The notes under the pieces are model-generated. The model worked only from the letters and a program-made list of their open reading frames with translations, ran no database searches and had not been told where the DNA came from. Shown here in pieces: positions 48,325-60,521 of a DNA stretch of 64,000 nt. Each line of letters starts with the position of its first letter. The first letter of the stretch is position 1. The translations under genes and the position numbers were made by a program. Source of the DNA: Candidatus Hydrogenedentota bacterium (GTDB lineage Bacteria; Hydrogenedentota; Hydrogenedentia; Hydrogenedentales; CAITNO01); contig CAITNO010000074.1 in NCBI GenBank assembly GCA_903893795.1, positions 25,966 through 89,965 on the forward strand, given 5' to 3'.

Positions 48325-49737
48325 CTACGGCGTCAGCACCACACGAAAACCATATTGGCCGTCAGTCACGTCCGGCGCGGGATTGACACGGTCTGCAGAG
48401 CGGGCCCACGTGTAAAGTTGGTACCAGGAGCCGCCACGGGCTGTTCGGTTCGAACCCCTGGGCGTATCCACCCAGGCTTGCCCTCCCGTGGGGGCGCCGG
48501 TATAGTCCGGATGATAGTCATCTTCACACCATTCGAACACATTTCCGCTCATGTCATACAGGCCCCAGGCATTTGGAAGCTTCTGGCCCACAATGTGCGC
48601 GTATTGCTCGCCTGCCGACCATGCGTTATCCGCATACCATGCGTAATCGCCGATCATGGAGCCGTTCGGGTCGTCGCCCCAATAGAACCGTGTCGTCGTC
48701 CCCGCCCGGGCCGCATATTCCCGCTCCGCCTCCGAGGGCAGCCGAAATGTCTTGCCAGTATCGCTGTTTACCGCGGTCAAGAACGCCTTCGCGTCGTTCC
48801 AGGACACGAGCGAGGCCGGGCTGCTCCCGTTGGCAAGCTCAAAAGCCTGGCCCGTCCATGGCGAGGTCCCCATCACCGCTTTCCACTGCGATTTGGTGAT
48901 CGAATACTTACCCATCCAGAACCCGGGCAGCGTCACCAGGTGCTGCGGCTGTTCATTGGCGACCCGACCCTGCTCGTTGTCCGGGCTGCCCATGGTAAAC
49001 TCCCCGCTCGGAATCCACTTCAACACCAGCGACACATTGCCCGGCAGCAGCACGGTCTGCGACGCGCCTGCGGAGGGCTCCGCCAGCTTGATGTAGTCAC
49101 TGTACACGGCGGAGTTGTTGCCGGCGCCGTCAAGGTACTGCGCGCGAACGGTGTGATTGCCAAGGCCTGCCGGCAGCGTGTAAGGGCGCGTGGCCTGGGG
49201 CGCTTCCCAGGCGGTCCAGTGCGCGCCGTCATCACTGAAACGCACGCGCGACACGCCCGAACCCGAGCCGTCCGCCCAGGTCAGTCCCAGCGTGACGGAT
49301 CGGCTGTTCGTGGTCGCGGCACCGCTGTTAATGGTGATGCCGCCCGTGGGAGGCGCGGTATCCAGCAGGATGTAGTCGCTGCACACCGCGGAACTGTTGT
49401 TTGCCTTGTCCAGGAACTGGACCCGCACCGTCCTGTGGCCGTCCGGTCCCACCGGCAGGGCGTAGGTGTCAGACGCGGCAAGCGCCTGCCACGCCGTCCA
49501 ATGCGCGCCGTCATCGCTGAAACGCATCCGCGACACGCCCGAGCCCCCGACGCCGTCGCTCCAGGTGAGCGCCAGGAGGACGTTGAGTGTGTTGGTGGCG
49601 CTGCGGTTGTTGTTGATGACGATGGTGCCTGTCGGGGGCGTGGTATCCACGGCGCGGGCGCCCGACGGGGCAAACCCTGCAAGCGCCGCCAACATTAATG
49701 TATAAACAATCCCTTGAGCCTTTAACGTGCTTTTCAT
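48325..49737 (-). CDS. Secreted SUMF1-like protein with two Ig-like repeats, copy 3
   Basis: A 470-residue exported protein with a signal peptide (IVYTLMLAALAGFAPSGARA). Two repeats of about 80 residues each start 'TTPPTGTIVIN' or similar and contain 'RMRFSDDGAHWTAWQ'. A C-terminal FGE/SUMF1-type domain follows ('MGSPDNEQGRVANEQPQHLV', 'FRLPSEAEREYAARAGT', 'MSGNVFEWCEDDY'). The catalytic Cys pair of true formylglycine-generating enzyme is missing: the segment reads 'RGGSWYQLYTWARSADR'. It is thus probably a binding or other SUMF1-fold protein. The ATG at 49737 has GGAG 9 bases upstream. It is the most divergent of three tandem paralogues. Confidence 0.8.
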   Translation of the reverse strand: MKSTLKAQGIVYTLMLAALAGFAPSGARAVDTTPPTGTIVINNNRSATNTLNVLLALTWSDGVGGSGVSRMRFSDDGAHWTAWQALAASDTYALPVGPDGHRTVRVQFLDKANNSSAVCSDYILLDTAPPTGGITINSGAATTNSRSVTLGLTWADGSGSGVSRVRFSDDGAHWTAWEAPQATRPYTLPAGLGNHTVRAQYLDGAGNNSAVYSDYIKLAEPSAGASQTVLLPGNVSLVLKWIPSGEFTMGSPDNEQGRVANEQPQHLVTLPGFWMGKYSITKSQWKAVMGTSPWTGQAFELANGSSPASLVSWNDAKAFLTAVNSDTGKTFRLPSEAEREYAARAGTTTRFYWGDDPNGSMIGDYAWYADNAWSAGEQYAHIVGQKLPNAWGLYDMSGNVFEWCEDDYHPDYTGAPTGGQAWVDTPRGSNRTARGGSWYQLYTWARSADRVNPAPDVTDGQYGFRVVLTP

Positions 49738-50011
49738 GGTATCCACTCCATTGTGCGGCATTCATGCCCGCGTTCACATTCGCCTGACCCGATGACCTGT
49801 AACGGTCGCTCCGTGCGGACTTGTTGCATGAATGTTATACAGATGGTGGGGCGCAAACATCCGTGGAAAGTACGTTCCCTGCTGGATCCCTGCGAAAAAG
49901 ATGCAAAAGGCTCTCGAATGTTTCCCCCGGGAATGCCAATCTTTTTGTTGGGGTCCTGAATCACGGGGCGTATATTTTCGAGAGCGCCAATCAGGAGCAT
50001 TGGTTTTCCCA

Positions 50012-50048
50012 GGCAAAAAGAAGTTCGCCCGCCGGAAGGCGGGCGAAC
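50012..50048 (-). terminator. Intrinsic terminator of SUMF1-like copy 2
   Basis: On the minus strand, GTTCGCCCGCC-TTCC-GGCGGGCGAAC forms a perfect 11-bp stem followed by TTCTTTTTG. It lies 54 bases after the stop of the 50103 gene, and separates it from copy 3 in a 365-base gap that otherwise shows nothing clear. Confidence 0.85.
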
Positions 50049-50102
50049 GAAGGTCAAGAGATGTCCCGTTGCGCCCGCTCGGGACGCAACGGCGAAAAGC
50101 GG

Positions 50103-51512
50103 CTACGGAATCCGCACGACGCGCATGCCGATGGACCAGCCATTGGCTAATGGTCCATACTTAGTGCGGTTTGCAGACCGGAAGGCCCCCACGAGGTCAG
50201 ACAACCCGTAATCATGAGATGCCCGCCGTTCAGCCCTCGGAGAGTCCACCCAGGCACTGCCGTCCGTCGGCGCCCCGCTGTAACTGGAATGCCAGTCGTC
50301 TTCACACCACTCCGCAACGTTGCCGGCCATGTCGTACAGGCCCCACGCATTGGGTTTCTTCTGGCCCACCAAATGCGCGTAATTCTCGCCGACGTCCATC
50401 GTGTTTCCCTTCCACCAGGCATATTGACTTCCCGTCGCATCGCTTCCATCATCACCCCAGTAGTATTGCGTGGTCGTTCCCGCGCGGAGGGCGTATTGGA
50501 ACTGCGCCTCCGAGGGCAGCCGGAAAGTCTTACCGGTACAGGTGTTCAGTGCCGTCAGGATGGTGTGCGCGTCATTCCAATTGATAAACACTGCGGGCGC
50601 ATTCGCGACACCGAGCTCGTTCGGATTCGTGTTCGGCTCATACCCCGTCAGCGCCTGCCTTTGGGCGTTGGTCAGTTCATACTTGCCCATCCAGAAGCCG
50701 CTCAGCGTCACCGTGTGCTGCGGCCATTCCCAGTTCATCGCGTTCGGGTCCGTATCCGGACTGCCCATGACGAAACTCCCCGCCGGGATCCACCTCATCA
50801 CCAGCGGCACACTGCCCGGGAGCATGATCGTCTCCTCGTTCGGGTCCGCCACGAGCTTGATGTAGTCGTTGTACACCGGTGAATAGTTGTTCGCGGCGTC
50901 CAGATATTGCACCCGCACCGTCTGGTAGCCGAGCGTCGCTTTCGGCAGCTTGTAGGCTTTCGTGGCGGTGGGGTACATCCAGTTGGTCCAGGTCGAACCA
51001 TTGTCGCTGAAGCGCATGCGGACCACGCCCGAACCGCCCGCATTGTCGGCAAAGGTCAACCCGAGCGTGACCGACTGCTTCGTCGTGGTCAGGTCGCCCT
51101 TGTTGATGATGATGGCGCCCGTCGGCGCCACCGTGTCCAGCCGGATATAGTCGCTGTAGGTTATGGAGCGGTTGTTGGCCAGGTCGATGAACTGAACCCT
51201 CACCGTCTTGTATCCGTCCCCGGCAGGAAGCTGGTAGGACCGCGACGGTGTCAGGCTCTCATAGGCCGTCCAGGTCGAGCCGTCATTGCTGAAGCGCATC
51301 CGCGCCACGCCCGAGCCGCCCGCATTGTCGGCCCAGGTCATTGCGATGGTCACATTGCGCGAGTTCGTGCACGATTGGTTGCCGTTGATGACAATCGTGC
51401 CCGTCGGGGGCGTCGTGTCTGTCACCGCACGCGCCGCCGGCTGCGGCAGCACCGCAAGCGCCAGCAGCACGGCCGCCAGTGTGAGTCCAAAACCCAAAGA
51501 CTTCTTGTTCAT
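50103..51512 (-). CDS. Secreted SUMF1-like protein with two Ig-like repeats, copy 2
   Basis: 469 residues with the same order as its neighbours. A signal peptide (LTLAAVLLALAVLPQPAARA) is followed by two Ig-like repeats with 'RMRFSNDGSTWTAYESLTPS' and 'RMRFSDNGSTWTNWMYPTAT', then the SUMF1 domain ('MGSPDTDPNAMNWEWPQHTV', 'FRLPSEAQFQYALRAGTTTQ', 'MAGNVAEWCEDDW'). Near the end the usual RGGSW block has changed to 'RASHDYGLSDLVGAFRSANR', so any active site of the FGE type is lost. Upstream of the start is the conserved ACGGAGTGTATGCG. The Ig-like repeats are almost identical to those of copy 1, which indicates recent duplication or gene conversion. Confidence 0.8.
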   Translation of the reverse strand: MNKKSLGFGLTLAAVLLALAVLPQPAARAVTDTTPPTGTIVINGNQSCTNSRNVTIAMTWADNAGGSGVARMRFSNDGSTWTAYESLTPSRSYQLPAGDGYKTVRVQFIDLANNRSITYSDYIRLDTVAPTGAIIINKGDLTTTKQSVTLGLTFADNAGGSGVVRMRFSDNGSTWTNWMYPTATKAYKLPKATLGYQTVRVQYLDAANNYSPVYNDYIKLVADPNEETIMLPGSVPLVMRWIPAGSFVMGSPDTDPNAMNWEWPQHTVTLSGFWMGKYELTNAQRQALTGYEPNTNPNELGVANAPAVFINWNDAHTILTALNTCTGKTFRLPSEAQFQYALRAGTTTQYYWGDDGSDATGSQYAWWKGNTMDVGENYAHLVGQKKPNAWGLYDMAGNVAEWCEDDWHSSYSGAPTDGSAWVDSPRAERRASHDYGLSDLVGAFRSANRTKYGPLANGWSIGMRVVRIP

Positions 51513-51561
51513 CGCATACACTCCGTTGTGATTGGCACCGCGCATCATCCCATTCGGCAAA

Positions 51562-51590
51562 GCCACCCCCCGGACAGTTCCGGGGGCGGC
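51562..51590 (-). terminator. Probable terminator of SUMF1-like copy 1
   Basis: A GC-rich hairpin (GCCGCCCCCGGA / TCCGGGGGGTGGC on the minus strand) with one bulge and one mismatch is followed by CTTTG. It closely resembles the hairpin at 56602-56631, including the AGT before it. Confidence 0.6.
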
Positions 51591-51618
51591 ACTAAATTCA
51601 TACTTCAGTCTTCAACAA

Positions 51619-53022
51619 CTACCTGACGAGGCGGAAACCGAAGAAGTAGTGACCGCCGGTATTATTACTGCGGTGCGCAGAACGGGCATAGGTCCAGTCA
51701 CCCGCAAAGCAACCACCATGCAACACGTGGTAACTGCCTGCGGGAGCAGACATCCACGCACTGCCATCGGTCGGCGCGCCCGTGTAGCTGTCATGATAAT
51801 AGTCCTGGCAGTATTCCAGCACATTTCCGCACATGTCGTAGAAGCCCCAGGCATTCGGAAGCTTCAGTCCCACCACATGCGCATACTGGTCGTTTAGACA
51901 ATCATTATAGTACCAGGCGTTGGCGTCAATGATGGAATAGCTCGGGTCGTCGCCCCACCAGAACCGGGTCGTCGTGCCCGCACGGGCGGTGTATTCCGAT
52001 TGCGCCTCGGAGGGCAGGTGAAAGGTTTTGCCTGTCAACGCGTTCAGCGCCGTGACAAAGGACTGTATATCATCCCAGGAAACGCCCACCGCGGGAGAGT
52101 CCAGGTCGGAAGACACGTGGGTATAACTGGTCCAGGGCGTGGTGCCCATGACCGCGTACCACTGCCGCTTGGTCACCTGGAATTTGCCCATCCAGAAGCC
52201 GCTGGCGAACGTCACGGAGTGCTGCGGACCCTCATCGGCGCCGCGCAGAGACTCCGTGACAGGACTGCCCATGGCGAAAGTCCCTGCCGATACCCACTTC
52301 ATCACCAGCGGCACACTGCCCGGGAGCAGGGTAGTCTCCTCGGTGCCGGCGGCGGGTTCTACCAGCTTGATGTAGTCGTTGTACACGGGCGAGTAGTTGT
52401 TCGCGGCGTCCAGGTACTGCACCCGCACGGTCTGGTAGCCGAGGTCGGCTTTCGGCAACTTGTAGGCTTTTGTGGCGGTGGGGTACATCCAGTTGGTCCA
52501 GGTGGAGCCGTTGTCGCTGAAGCGCATGCGCGCCACGCCCGAACCGCCCGCATTGTCGGCATAGGTCAGCCCCAGCGTCACCGACTGCTTCGTCGTGGTC
52601 AAATCACCCTTGTTGATGATGATGGTGCCCGTCGGCGCCACCGTGTCCAGCCGGATGTAATCGCTGTAGGTGATCGAGCGGTTGTTCGCCAGGTCGATAA
52701 ACTGCACCCGCACCGTCTTGTAGCCGTCCCCGGCAGGAAGCTGGTACGACCGCGACGCCGTCAGGCTTTCATAGGCCGTCCAGGTCGAGCCGTCATTGCT
52801 GAAGCGCATGCGGGCCACGCCTGAACCGCCCACCTCGTCGGCCCAAGTCATCGCGATCGTCACATTGCGCGAGTTCGTGCACGATTGGTTGCCGTTGATG
52901 ACAATCGTGCCCGTCGGGGCCGTCGTGTCCGTCACCGCACCCGCGACCGGCTGCGGCATCACCCCAAGCGCCAGCAGCACCGCCGCCAGCATGAGCCCAA
53001 GTCCCAATGATGTCTTTTTCAT
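51619..53022 (-). CDS. Secreted SUMF1-like protein with two Ig-like repeats, copy 1
   Basis: 467 residues. A signal peptide (LMLAAVLLALGVMPQPVAGA) is followed by two Ig-like repeats nearly identical to copy 2, then a SUMF1 domain with 'MGSPVTESLRGADEGPQHSV', 'FHLPSEAQSEYTARAGTTTR' and 'MCGNVLEYCQDYY'. The final block is 'LHGGCFAGDWTYARSAHR', with one Cys but not the spaced pair of formylglycine-generating enzyme. The ATG at 53022 has GGAG 9 bases upstream (AATGGAGTATGCGCT). It is the first gene downstream of the response regulator on the same strand, and its promoter region carries a dyad (53122-53137). Confidence 0.8.
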   Translation of the reverse strand: MKKTSLGLGLMLAAVLLALGVMPQPVAGAVTDTTAPTGTIVINGNQSCTNSRNVTIAMTWADEVGGSGVARMRFSNDGSTWTAYESLTASRSYQLPAGDGYKTVRVQFIDLANNRSITYSDYIRLDTVAPTGTIIINKGDLTTTKQSVTLGLTYADNAGGSGVARMRFSDNGSTWTNWMYPTATKAYKLPKADLGYQTVRVQYLDAANNYSPVYNDYIKLVEPAAGTEETTLLPGSVPLVMKWVSAGTFAMGSPVTESLRGADEGPQHSVTFASGFWMGKFQVTKRQWYAVMGTTPWTSYTHVSSDLDSPAVGVSWDDIQSFVTALNALTGKTFHLPSEAQSEYTARAGTTTRFWWGDDPSYSIIDANAWYYNDCLNDQYAHVVGLKLPNAWGFYDMCGNVLEYCQDYYHDSYTGAPTDGSAWMSAPAGSYHVLHGGCFAGDWTYARSAHRSNNTGGHYFFGFRLVR

Positions 53023-53092
53023 AGCGCATACTCCATTGTGTTTTGGCACCGCACGTCATTCGGCGAACTGACGAGGTCCAACCTCTGTGAGG

Positions 53093-53137
53093 AGTATATA
53101 GGGCAAAGGCGGGAAGGGAAATTGGTGGTATCACCAA
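53093..53137 (-). promoter_or_regulatory. Promoter and dyad operator before SUMF1-like copy 1
   Basis: On the minus strand, TATACT (53098-53093) is preceded at 17 bases by a poor -35 (TTTCCC). Immediately upstream is a perfect 6-bp dyad, TTGGTG-N4-CACCAA (53122-53137). A weak -35 with a dyad centred close to it is the layout of an activator-dependent promoter. The adjacent NarL-type regulator is the obvious candidate, by inference. Confidence 0.45.
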
Positions 53138-53175
53138 GAAAAGGGAGGGACAAACACCTAGGTAATTCTACCCGG

Positions 53176-53838
53176 TTAGGCCTGCGCGAGCCCGTTGCGG
53201 ATGGCGTAGCGGACCAGTTCGCCGACCGAATGCAGGTCCAGTTTGTTCATGATGTTGGCGCGATGCGCCTCGACCGTCTTGGGTTTGACGCCGAGGATTT
53301 GACCGATTTCCTTGCTGGGCTTGCCGGCAGCGACGAGTTGAATGATCTCGCGCTCGCGCGGCGTAAGCCGCTCTTTGGCGGCCGGCCCGTCCTTGGCCTG
53401 CTGTCCGGGATTCAGAAAATGGTCCAGCAACAACCCCGACAGCCCCTCGGAAAAGTAGGTTTTGCGCGCGGCCAGCGCCTGCACGGCCGCCACCAGATGC
53501 CGCCGGGCATCGGTCTTGAGCACCATGCCGCGCGCTCCCGCGGTGAGCACCTCGCGCGCCAACTGCTCGGAGTCGTGCATGGTGATGACAAGCACGTGGG
53601 TTTCGGGAAGGGCCTTCAGAATCTGCCGCGTGGCGTCGGCGCCGTTCAATTCGGGCATGCTGAAATCAAGCACCGCAATGTCAGGCTTGTGCCGCAACGC
53701 CAGTGACACAGCTTCGCGTCCCGTTGCGGCCTCGCCGCAAACGGACCAACCTGCCTGCGACAGGATCAGCGCCCGCAACCCTTCCCGCACGATGTCATGA
53801 TCATCGGCTATAAGTATCCGTAAAAGCTTGAGTTCCAC
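53176..53838 (-). CDS. NarL/FixJ-type response regulator
   Basis: A 220-residue two-component regulator. The receiver domain has the acidic pair in 'ILIADDHDIVREGL', the phospho-acceptor Asp in 'IAVLDFSMPELNG' (about residue 59), the Thr-equivalent 'VITMHD' and the Lys of 'GMVLKTDA'. The C-terminal LuxR-type helix-turn-helix reads 'LTPREREIIQLVAAGKPSKE' and 'KPKTVEAHRANIMNKLDLHS'. The start is GTG at 53838, six bases after AGGTGAC. It is divergent from the histidine kinase gene and lies upstream of the three SUMF1-like genes on the same strand, so it probably controls them. Confidence 0.9.
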   Translation of the reverse strand: MELKLLRILIADDHDIVREGLRALILSQAGWSVCGEAATGREAVSLALRHKPDIAVLDFSMPELNGADATRQILKALPETHVLVITMHDSEQLAREVLTAGARGMVLKTDARRHLVAAVQALAARKTYFSEGLSGLLLDHFLNPGQQAKDGPAAKERLTPREREIIQLVAAGKPSKEIGQILGVKPKTVEAHRANIMNKLDLHSVGELVRYAIRNGLAQA

Positions 53839-54044
53839 AGTTTGTCACCTACGGGAATATTAGCACAAACTACGGTCCATGTTGCACCAAATTTGCGCCG
53901 ACCGCATGGCCGCAAGAAGCGGGACTGGAGGAACACTTTGCATATACGCGTCAACACTCGCATCATATACAGTGTGGGTGCCGCATATTGGCGGCGCCAC
54001 CTGTGTGCTTCTTGACCGTAGAAAGGCGGAAAGGGGAAAGGTTC

Positions 54045-56045
54045 ATGCCCAGAAGAACGGTGCGCACAACCGTGTGCAGCGGCATGCGGCTCGCCGTTCT
54101 GGCGGTGTTTGCCTGCGCGGCGGCGTGGAACGCGGCCGGTGAAACCCGCGGCAGTGTAACCATAACAAGTCAGGCGCTGGATATCTCCGGGCCGGAGGGC
54201 ATCCTCGTCAAACCGGCGCCCATCCGCTGCCGCCTGGGGGACGATCCGCAGTGGAAGGAACCCGGTTTCAACGATGAGGACTGGGACAGGGCGGACATTT
54301 TCAAATATCCGCTGGACAATCCCCGGGCTGTGCCTCCCTTTCCGCCCGTCTGGTTCCGGTTTGACCTCCATTTTTCCCCGGACCTCATTGGCCGACCGGT
54401 CGCGTTCACCTCACTCTCCTCCCATGAGCCGGACACACAGGTCTTTTTGAACGGAACCCGGGTGGCAAACCTGCAGTTCATTGACCCAACAACAGGGGAA
54501 ACGCCACGGTGCATCGTGCCGTTTCAGGCGGACTGCCTGGTCGCAGTGCGCTGGAATCCTGAAAAGTGGCGCCTGGAGCGTGCGCTGGGCCGGGAGAAGG
54601 AAGAGGCACGGTTCATTTTTTCCATCCGGGATTATGAGGCGGCGCTTCAGAAACAGGAGCGCCTGGCCGTCAATGACCATGCGTATGCCCTGCACAGGAT
54701 CGTCCTGATAGGCGTGTTCATCGTGTTTTTTCTGTTCCACTTTGCCCTGTACGCGCATTACCCCCTGCGACGCGAAAACATCTACTACGGCATGACGGCC
54801 CTGCTTTGCATATTGGCCCTGACATCGCTCCATGTCTCCGAAGTCTACCGCTATAGCGGACCCATCTGGTACTGGTCCTACGCGGTGTTCTTCCTTGGGA
54901 TTATGCCGTTCAGCATGATCAGCGGGGCCGCCCTGCTCCAACTGCTTCTCACTGGACGCGCTGGGCGTACTTTGCCCCTGTACCTGACCGCCGGTGTCCT
55001 GATGCAAATTGCCCATATCCAGACGCCCTGGGTCAGCAACACGGCGATGCAATGCTTTCCCTTGGTGGTTGTTCCGGAACTCGCATGGCGCGTATGGTTG
55101 AGACACCGCCGGGGGGGCCTGCCGTTCAGTTGGATGGTGGTCGGCGCACTGCTCCTCGTCTGCGTCATCTTGAGCGCCCTCGGCTCCGCCCTCGGTCTTG
55201 ACAGCGACTCGGGTTTCATACGCTATGCCGCATGGTATTTCTTTGCGTTCTTCCTGCAGATTGTCGCCGTTGCGTTTGCGCGTGAATATGCCCGAGACAA
55301 AAAGCACCTGGAGGCGCGGACGGTCGAGCTCGCCGCGGAGATTGCCGAGCGCGAGCGTGCGGAAGAGGCGTTTCAGGGCATTTCACGCCGCCTGCTGGAC
55401 GTGCGCGACGAGGAACAGCGCCGCATGGCGCGGGAACTGCACGATTCGGTGGCCCAGGACCTCGCCGCCATGGTCATGATGATTGGGCAAATCGAGGACG
55501 ACCTGCCCGAGAAAAGCCCGGAACAGGCGAAGATTCTTGAGGGCACCCTCGATCTCGCCAACAAATGCGCGCAGGAGGTGCGGACACTGTCCTATCTGCT
55601 CCACCCGCCGCTGCTGGACCAGCTTGGACTGATTCCGGCGCTGCGCGCGTACGTGGACGGATTCACCAAACGAAGCGGCATCCGCGTTACCGTGGAGGTG
55701 AAGCCCGATTTCGCGAGGATGCCGGCCGATGTTGAACTGACCCTTTTCCGAATCGTGCAGGAGTGCCTCGGCAACATACACCGCCATTCGCACAGCGTCA
55801 CCGCCCGCGTCACACTCGGGCAAAGCGCCGGCACGGTCCTTCTTAAAGTGCGGGACGAAGGCAGGGGAATCCCCGAGGCTACGCTCGCGGCCATACAACA
55901 GCACCGTTCGTGCGGGGGCGGGGGCGTGGGCGTGGCAGGCATGCAGGAGAGGCTTCATCTCCTGAAAGGAACCTTCCACATTGAATCCGGCCCGGGCGGG
56001 ACCACGGTTCACGCCGCCGTTCCTCTTGGAAACAACAATAGCTAA
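54045..56045 (+). CDS. DISM-type histidine kinase with sugar-binding-like sensor domain
   Basis: A sensor kinase of 666 residues. After the signal peptide comes an extracytoplasmic beta domain (about 45-200) with 'WKEPGFNDEDWDRADIF' and 'VWFRFDLHF', the wording of the jelly-roll sugar-binding domain of GH2 enzymes and 7TMR-DISM sensors. Seven or eight membrane helices follow (about 225-425). The cytoplasmic part is a HisKA_3 domain with the phospho-accepting H466 in 'MARELHDSVAQDLAAM', then an ATPase domain ('LFRIVQECLGNIHRHSHS', 'VRDEGRGIP', 'GVGVAGMQERL'). This subtype pairs with NarL-type regulators, and the gene is divergent from one. The ligand may be a carbohydrate. The ATG at 54045 follows AAAGG. 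Confidence 0.9.
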   Translation: MPRRTVRTTVCSGMRLAVLAVFACAAAWNAAGETRGSVTITSQALDISGPEGILVKPAPIRCRLGDDPQWKEPGFNDEDWDRADIFKYPLDNPRAVPPFPPVWFRFDLHFSPDLIGRPVAFTSLSSHEPDTQVFLNGTRVANLQFIDPTTGETPRCIVPFQADCLVAVRWNPEKWRLERALGREKEEARFIFSIRDYEAALQKQERLAVNDHAYALHRIVLIGVFIVFFLFHFALYAHYPLRRENIYYGMTALLCILALTSLHVSEVYRYSGPIWYWSYAVFFLGIMPFSMISGAALLQLLLTGRAGRTLPLYLTAGVLMQIAHIQTPWVSNTAMQCFPLVVVPELAWRVWLRHRRGGLPFSWMVVGALLLVCVILSALGSALGLDSDSGFIRYAAWYFFAFFLQIVAVAFAREYARDKKHLEARTVELAAEIAERERAEEAFQGISRRLLDVRDEEQRRMARELHDSVAQDLAAMVMMIGQIEDDLPEKSPEQAKILEGTLDLANKCAQEVRTLSYLLHPPLLDQLGLIPALRAYVDGFTKRSGIRVTVEVKPDFARMPADVELTLFRIVQECLGNIHRHSHSVTARVTLGQSAGTVLLKVRDEGRGIPEATLAAIQQHRSCGGGGVGVAGMQERLHLLKGTFHIESGPGGTTVHAAVPLGNNNS

Positions 56046-59081: not shown

Positions 59082-60521
59082 ATGGACCAGAATGAAGCAC
59101 TCTACCGAAAAAGAGTGGCGCAGAAGATCGAGGAAGTGCGCACGAGCGGCGGGGCAGAACTGCATCTTCCCTTTTACGCGCTGACGTCGCTTCCGGAGTC
59201 ACTGGGCCAACTCACGCAGTTGCAGGTCCTCGACCTTTCCAACGGCGGCCTAACGTCGCTTCCGGAGTCACTGGGGCAGCTCACGCAGTTGCAGGTCCTC
59301 GACCTTTCCAACAACAACCTGACGGTGCTCCCGGAATCGCTGGGCCAACTCGCGCAGTTGAAGACACTCAATATTCGTGGCAACGCCTTGACATCGCTTC
59401 CGGAGTCGCTGAGCCAACTTACGCTGTTGAGCTGGCTCGACCTCAGTGGCAACCCCCTGACAGTAATTCCGGAGTCATTGGGTCGGCTCACGCAGTTGTA
59501 CGGACTGGGTCTCGACGGCAAACAGACGCTTCCCGGCCTGGCAGCGTCACAAGCAACCGTTGTCTTTGAGATTTCCCTTGATCAACTGGATAAGGAGGCA
59601 CAGCGACTTGCGGAACAGGCGATTGAGGATGCGCGGAGAAGCGACGGGACCGGGTTAGACCTCTCCTTCAGCCGCTTGACCTCGCTTCCAGAGTCACTGG
59701 GCCGGCTCACGCAGTTGGGGAAACTCGACCTTCGCGGCAACCGTCTGATGCCGCTTCCGCAGTCGCTCAGCCAACTCACGCAGTTGAGCTATCTCGACCT
59801 TTCTTTCAATCTGTTGAAAGAGCTTCCGGAGTGGCTGTGCCAGCTCAAGCAGCTGCAGGTCCTCGACCTTTCCCAGAACCTCCTGATGGCGCTTCCCAAG
59901 TCGTTGGGCCAACTCACGCGGTTAAGAGAATTACGTCTTTCTGACAACGCCCTGACGGCGCTTCCAGAGTCACTGGGCCAGCTCACACAGTTGGAGCGGC
60001 TCGACCTCGGCAGCAACGCCCTGGTGACACTTCCGGAGTCGCTGGGCCAGCTTGCACAGTTGGCCGTGCTCCGTCTTTCCTTCAATGACCTGACGTCGCT
60101 GCCGGAGTCGTTGGGCCAACTCGCACAGTTGACCCATCTCAACCTTTTCCGCAATGACCTGAAGTCGCTTCCGGAGTCGCTGGGCCGACTCACACAACTG
60201 AAGGTCCTCGAACTTGCCAATAACGGCCTGAAGTCGCTTCCGGAGTCGCTGGGCCAACTCACGCAGTTGAGTTATCTCGACCTTTCTTTCAACCATCTGA
60301 AGTCGCTTCCGGAGTCGCTGGGTCAGCTCATGCAGTTGAAGACACTCAATATTTGCGGCAACGCCTTGACGTCGCTGCCGGAGTCACTGGGTCGGCTCAC
60401 GCAGTTGCCGGAGTTATATCTCGACGACAACCCGCTGCATCCGGATCTGGCCGAGGCGTACAAGAAGGGTACTGCGGCGGTCTTGGCCTACTTGCGGGAA
60501 CTTCCGCCAGAGCGGTCATAG
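59082..60521 (+). CDS. Leucine-rich repeat protein with two LRR modules
   Basis: A 479-residue protein built almost wholly of about seventeen 23-residue repeats of the type 'LTSLPESLGQLTQLQVLDLS'. There is no signal peptide, so it should be cytoplasmic. It contains two modules. The first begins with 'YRKRVAQKIEEVRTSGGAEL'. At about residues 165-190 a similar helical starter ('AQRLAEQAIEDARRSDGTGL') opens the second, which suggests an internal duplication. The end, 'LHPDLAEAYKKGTAAVLAYL', is the wording that in ROCO proteins links the LRR to the Roc GTPase, but the frame stops there, so the GTPase part is missing. It probably mediates protein binding. AAAGG lies 7 bases before the ATG. Confidence 0.75.
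   Translation: MDQNEALYRKRVAQKIEEVRTSGGAELHLPFYALTSLPESLGQLTQLQVLDLSNGGLTSLPESLGQLTQLQVLDLSNNNLTVLPESLGQLAQLKTLNIRGNALTSLPESLSQLTLLSWLDLSGNPLTVIPESLGRLTQLYGLGLDGKQTLPGLAASQATVVFEISLDQLDKEAQRLAEQAIEDARRSDGTGLDLSFSRLTSLPESLGRLTQLGKLDLRGNRLMPLPQSLSQLTQLSYLDLSFNLLKELPEWLCQLKQLQVLDLSQNLLMALPKSLGQLTRLRELRLSDNALTALPESLGQLTQLERLDLGSNALVTLPESLGQLAQLAVLRLSFNDLTSLPESLGQLAQLTHLNLFRNDLKSLPESLGRLTQLKVLELANNGLKSLPESLGQLTQLSYLDLSFNHLKSLPESLGQLMQLKTLNICGNALTSLPESLGRLTQLPELYLDDNPLHPDLAEAYKKGTAAVLAYLRELPPERS

Follow-up and report, generated by a model that had tools for sequence, protein, structure and literature searches.

What has made three neighbouring genes of one fold so different from each other at one end and so alike at the other? 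The window, a 64,000-nucleotide stretch of DNA from a Candidatus Hydrogenedentota bacterium, encodes three tandem proteins, here c1, c2 and c3, each with two Ig-like repeats and one SUMF1 domain. An earlier note on this DNA described them as exported paralogues beside a response regulator, lacking the cysteines of formylglycine-generating enzyme (FGE), and proposed that they form a diversifying set of surface or secreted binding proteins under two-component control, comparable to the variable proteins of diversity-generating retroelements (DGRs). The features on which the question turns are the following, with the variable-region (VR) equivalents placed by alignment to DGR targets.

53988..56045, plus strand: HisKA_3 sensor histidine kinase, in divergent orientation to the response regulator
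53176..53838, minus strand: NarL/LuxR-type response regulator (Response_reg and GerE), upstream of c1
51619..53022, minus strand: c1, putatively secreted Ig-Ig-SUMF1 protein (open reading frame to 53049; likely ATG at 53022)
52342..52941, minus strand: Ig-like pair of c1, 94–96% identical to that of c2, the two joined with 100/100 support in the Ig tree
51622..52323, minus strand: SUMF1 (FGE-type C-type-lectin) domain of c1 (PF03781; AF2 model with pLDDT 94; Foldseek matches to PvdO and TvpA)
51640..51738, minus strand: VR-equivalent block of c1, 33 codons before GFR
50103..51512, minus strand: c2, putatively secreted Ig-Ig-SUMF1 protein (open reading frame to 51566; likely ATG at 51512)
50850..51428, minus strand: Ig-like pair of c2
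50106..50819, minus strand: SUMF1 domain of c2 (Pfam match)
50130..50228, minus strand: VR-equivalent block of c2, RGGSW motif lost, least template-like of 69 domains
50023..50048, minus strand: strong intrinsic-terminator-like hairpin 3′ of c2, an 11-pair stem followed by a T-rich tail
48325..49737, minus strand: c3, putatively secreted Ig-Ig-SUMF1 protein (open reading frame to 49761; likely ATG at 49737)
49066..49647, minus strand: Ig-like pair of c3, 64% identical to that of c1
48328..49041, minus strand: SUMF1 domain of c3 (Pfam match)
48352..48450, minus strand: VR-equivalent block of c3, RGGSW kept

The basic description holds: open reading frames, Pfam domains and the signal-peptide-like N-termini that follow each likely ATG (read by eye) confirm three tandem, putatively exported Ig-Ig-SUMF1 proteins beside a response regulator, with the hairpin marking a break between c1–c2 and c3. 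A single PF03781 domain is found in each protein (E values of 2e-34 to 3e-43; 119.6–148.6 bits against a curated cut-off of 23.3), together with two Ig-like repeats, whose Big_7 and OmpL47 matches lie only below the curated Pfam and NCBIfam cut-offs. Sequence and fold model together indicate that c1–c3 belong to the FGE-sulfatase/SUMF1 family, with its FGE-type C-type-lectin (CLec) fold. The assembly from which the window comes (7.0 Mb, 159 contigs, 88% complete) holds 48 PF03781 matches. Elsewhere, a relative carries a single open frame of 2,528 amino acids in which at least five SUMF1 domains follow one another (L185, G016:C44, 5099-9883), and the window itself encodes, at 59082-60521, a 479-amino-acid leucine-rich-repeat protein with near-identical repeats.

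The missing FGE cysteines turn out to be a less telling trait than the earlier note supposed. The C-terminal blocks of c1, c2 and c3 read GGCFAGDWTYARSA, HDYGLSDLVGAFRSA and GGSWYQLYTWARSA, respectively, and the C-x4-C pair that marks the C-terminal GGS block of formylglycine-generating enzymes is absent from all three, so they are probably not such enzymes. This absence is nevertheless ordinary for the family and no distinguishing mark, because the residues common at these positions in a 50-row SUMF1 alignment spanning many phyla do not include cysteine, and because PvdO, the best solved relative, lacks the pair as well. What does distinguish c1–c3, judged from sequence, is the loss of three residues of the family consensus, namely W and C in EAEWEYAC and C in CRSA; 29 of the 50 rows keep all three, and c1, c2 and c3 have none of them. 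At another locus of the same genome (L001, G000:C16:44976-45773), a SUMF1 domain with GGSWLCYPGFC shows the C-x4-C spacing and plausibly has a true FGE motif.

The c1 head is modelled with confidence by AF2, and its top PDB folds by Foldseek are PvdO (TM 0.87), TvpA (TM 0.83) and FGEs; a full-length model of c1, built from 8 sequences, was too poor for use (pLDDT 57). The ranking of PvdO raises the possibility that c1–c3 are enzymes of the PvdO kind, periplasmic or secreted oxidoreductases carried on Ig stalks. PvdO is the top match by sequence too (111–119 bits), and it resembles c3 in having lost the W-C-C residues (AEREYGARAG, FSRSGNR) as well as the FGE cysteines. A head without these cysteines is therefore no proof of a pure binder, since PvdO is itself required for an oxidation. 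Against an enzymatic role, c1–c3 score 124–146 bits on the PvdO equivalog, far from its cut-off of 500; the block that would form the pocket is not conserved among them, at 26–40% identity; purified PvdO was inactive, with no detectable cofactor (PMC6206403); and C123, a paralogue in the same genome that bears a DGR signature, also has PvdO as its best match, so the resemblance of c1–c3 is to the general fold. We regard an enzymatic role as unlikely. The VR of characterised DGR proteins, at their C terminus, faces the solvent and makes up the ligand site (PMC6328139), and for this reason the divergent C-terminal block of c1–c3 is, by analogy, probably a binding face.

The earlier note's statement that the SUMF1 family includes DGR variable proteins is well founded here, not only through the TvpA fold match. 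Complete DGRs, each with a SUMF1 target, Avd, a reverse transcriptase (RT) and a template repeat (TR), are present in Hydrogenedentota relatives at L208 (G005:C16), L209 (G004:C68), L213 (G018:C154) and L215 (G012:C1313), and their VR is the same C-terminal block as in c1–c3. At L208, where the four elements lie close together, the Avd scores 132 bits against an NCBIfam cut-off of 80, the RT carries GLPIGNLTSQ and 14 of 15 TR/VR mismatches in the scored stretch fall at template adenines; the corresponding counts are 20/20 at L209, 14/14 at L215, and 19/19 and 15/15 at L213, where one template is paired with two targets and VRs. The head of the L208 target is 56% identical to that of c1 at the amino-acid level. 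The N-terminal part of the L208 target is weakly lipase-like.

Signatures of templating also occur within the genus. In the congeneric assembly G001, a trio of SUMF1 genes differs in the block at 17–25 of 66 first and second codon positions but at none of 33 third positions; upstream of the block, 20–27 of ~134 third positions differ. Same-genus VR pairs overall give 0/33 at position 3 versus 12–27/134 upstream, and even the cross-species pair G1a/G2b shows 10/66 differences at positions 1 and 2 of the block with 0/33 at position 3. C123, in the window's own genome, differs from the G001 trio at position 3 in 2 of 32–33 VR codons, compared with 34–42 of 132–134 third positions upstream (P = 0.001–0.01 for the reduction in the VR). 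No DGR core (RT, Avd and TR) was found in the three genus assemblies, and no TR by pattern, VR DNA or inferred-TR DNA; in the genus the core is either unassembled or lost. Such situations have precedents: Treponema strains without a DGR core keep relic targets (PMC4891356), and cyanobacteria have dispersed paralogues of variable proteins, some with remnant TR/VR homology only and no nearby RT (PMC7517822).

By contrast with these templated genes, c1–c3 show neither mark of a DGR variable protein, that is, neither mismatches at TR adenines nor low position-3 divergence in the VR. At every codon position their blocks are divergent, both among the three and relative to all relatives, and a comparison with the G001 trio shows no reduction at position 3 in the block (P = 0.5–0.96; the positive controls gave 0/33 and 2/32). 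At non-A sites, the mismatch to the TR inferred for the genus is 0.38 for c1, 0.41 for c3 and 0.51 for c2, versus 0.00–0.14 for templated genes, and in a ranking of 69 domains by template-likeness the three are among the lowest, with c2 last; this TR was inferred from the G001 VRs, so that the three G001 rows in the ranking are not independent. Current DGR targeting of c1–c3 was rejected on the absent adenine-site signature and the poor template match. An excess of NNY codons in the c1 block (15/17, P = 0.009, uncorrected), not seen in c2 or c3, may be a faint DGR relic. In the c2 block, where RGGSW is gone, NGGH is readable by eye in another frame, and two compensating frameshifts are possible.

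The kinship of c1–c3 with DGR targets shows in the rest of the domain. In a SUMF1 tree computed with the VR columns left out, they fall, with modest support (SH-aLRT 92), in a 30-row set that includes 9 DGR-positive rows; homology outside the VR places them in the paralogue family of DGR targets. The search that the earlier note had recommended for an RT or template elsewhere in the genome found no DGR RT, Avd or TR in the 88% complete assembly. The genome's two RTs were set aside as DGR candidates, one being group II-like (QGGPLSP) and the other an RT–Cas1 fusion, both as read from sequence; the RT–Cas1-like fusion, at G000:C124:5623-6240 (L032, L221), is of the kind seen in RNA-acquiring CRISPR systems. 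A candidate TR, L264, appeared to be a further SUMF1 gene and not a template.

The contrast between the two halves of c1 and c2 that the earlier note had remarked on is clear in numbers. Their Ig parts are 94% identical in amino acids with a dS of 0.39, and their SUMF1 parts 48% identical with a dS of 1.23; the amino-acid breakpoint coincides with the Ig/SUMF1 domain boundary, a result reached in 0 of 2,000 permutations. Similarity between the two genes extends to ~37 bases just upstream of the start, and the most divergent stretch of all three proteins is the C-terminal block (alignment columns 441–480). The earlier note had held that uniform divergence along the genes would speak against its proposal; the comparison of substitution rates between the Ig and SUMF1 parts finds divergence to be non-uniform. 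A tandem pair in the congener G002, G2a/G2b, repeats the pattern, with a dS of 0.15 in the Ig part versus 1.03 in the SUMF1 part. Its Ig halves group together (98/92), one SUMF1 domain of the pair clusters with a gene from G001 (100/100), and a tandem grouping of the SUMF1 domains is rejected (P = 0.001). For c1 and c2 themselves, sisterhood in the SUMF1 tree, within which support is weak, is not rejected (P = 0.22). The Ig half of c1 and c2 has been homogenised by recombination, whether gene conversion or exchange of a cassette, and the breakpoint lies where the Ig and SUMF1 parts meet. Because silent sites step at the boundary too, the contrast between the halves is mainly due to recombination and not to selection alone.

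Two other accounts of the divergent heads can be weighed against these data. One dispenses with recombination and attributes the c1/c2 contrast to positive selection on the head after a simple tandem duplication. Replacement-site differences are indeed in excess in the head block, at codon positions 1 and 2, yet the threefold jump in silent divergence at the boundary and the conflicting topologies of the two halves of G2a/G2b make this account highly improbable. The other has an active DGR targeting c1–c3 from a distance, with its RT and template absent from the assembly. The core could sit in the missing part of the genome, action in trans on distant targets has been documented for DGRs (PMC10907252), C123 carries a VR signature in the same genome, and the c1 block has its NNY excess. 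Remote targeting would nevertheless have to accommodate blocks that differ from each other and from every relative at all codon positions, a poor fit to the inferred TR that leaves c1–c3 close to last among 69 domains, and searches of all three genus assemblies that yielded no DGR RT, Avd or TR, and it would need a separate TR for each copy. We consider it improbable, if less so than selection acting alone.

The Ig pair itself is not confined to SUMF1 proteins. Around 45 further occurrences without SUMF1 show it to be a general cassette in the window's genome. Many of these matches run to the stop codon, or close to it, in genes for secreted proteins of the WD40, PASTA, Kelch, metallophosphatase, C39-like and beta-propeller kinds, and such genes often stand in tandem runs (for example, L142, L143, L144, L145, L146, L147 and L148 in G000). 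The cassette possibly serves this lineage as a C-terminal module for anchoring or sorting.

Two-component control, the remaining part of the earlier proposal, finds little footing, as the linkage is not conserved. No pair of response regulator and histidine kinase was found near the other Ig–SUMF1 genes examined in the genome and its relatives, several of whose contigs are short, and in G001 the nearest relatives of the regulator–kinase pair lie in a 10.5-kb stretch without a SUMF1 or Ig gene. Judged by conserved linkage, c1–c3 are not marked as a regulon of the adjacent system, and the proximity of the response regulator to c1 is weak evidence of control.

Taken together, we favour, with a probability of roughly 0.65, the reading that c1–c3 are secreted or surface ligand binders and untemplated members of a DGR-target family, whose heads diverged by ordinary substitution and whose c1 and c2 Ig halves recombined. 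We infer that they are exported and that they bind a ligand. In each, an exported stalk of two Ig repeats would carry a CLec head of FGE type at the C terminus, with roughly the last 45 residues forming the binding face. DGRs hypermutate the heads of other members of the paralogous family; c1–c3 would either never have been captured by a DGR or have been retired from one long ago, and their heads would have diverged by ordinary substitution. Recombination homogenised the Ig halves of c1 and c2. Of the proposed diversifying set of binders, what stands is that these are secreted SUMF1/CLec-fold proteins of a DGR-target family; ongoing diversification, with no adenine-site signature in c1–c3 and no DGR RT, Avd or TR found in the 88% complete assembly, does not. 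More tentatively, the genus might maintain a set of secreted receptors built from two parts that evolve in opposite ways: a DGR varies some SUMF1 heads, recombination keeps neighbouring Ig stalks alike, and retired copies such as c1–c3 form a fixed archive of head types.

A DGR-target protein family is now placed in Candidatus Hydrogenedentota, an uncultured phylum for which our literature search found no DGR report. A single genus with templated and untemplated paralogues of the same fold offers a way to test what becomes of DGR targets once they have left the system. There is also a lesson in the locus: a variable C terminus and the lack of an FGE cysteine pair do not alone signal current diversification.

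Among known systems, FGE (SUMF1) shares its Pfam family and fold with c1–c3, which lack its C-x4-C copper-binding pair. PvdO (5HHA), the dihydropyoverdine oxidation factor, is the closest solved structure; it is exported, as predicted for c1–c3, and like them has no FGE cysteines. It differs in having no Ig stalk, in being a single gene in a siderophore cluster and in a C-terminal block not shared with c1–c3. DGR variable proteins of FGE type, TvpA of Treponema denticola (2Y3C), TaqVP and Mtd, have the C-terminal FGE-type CLec head in common with c1–c3, and proteins of this type end in their most variable block (PMC6328139). The DGR targets of T. denticola are all FGE-sulfatase proteins, some of them remote and some relic (PMC4891356). 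Unlike TvpA, TaqVP and Mtd, c1–c3 have no TR match or adenine-site signature and bear an N-terminal two-Ig stalk. The CLec paralogues of DGR targets in cyanobacteria resemble c1–c3 in being dispersed, some without a nearby RT (PMC7517822); they are mostly bare CLec or kinase-linked proteins, whereas c1–c3 are predicted to be secreted and carry Ig repeats.
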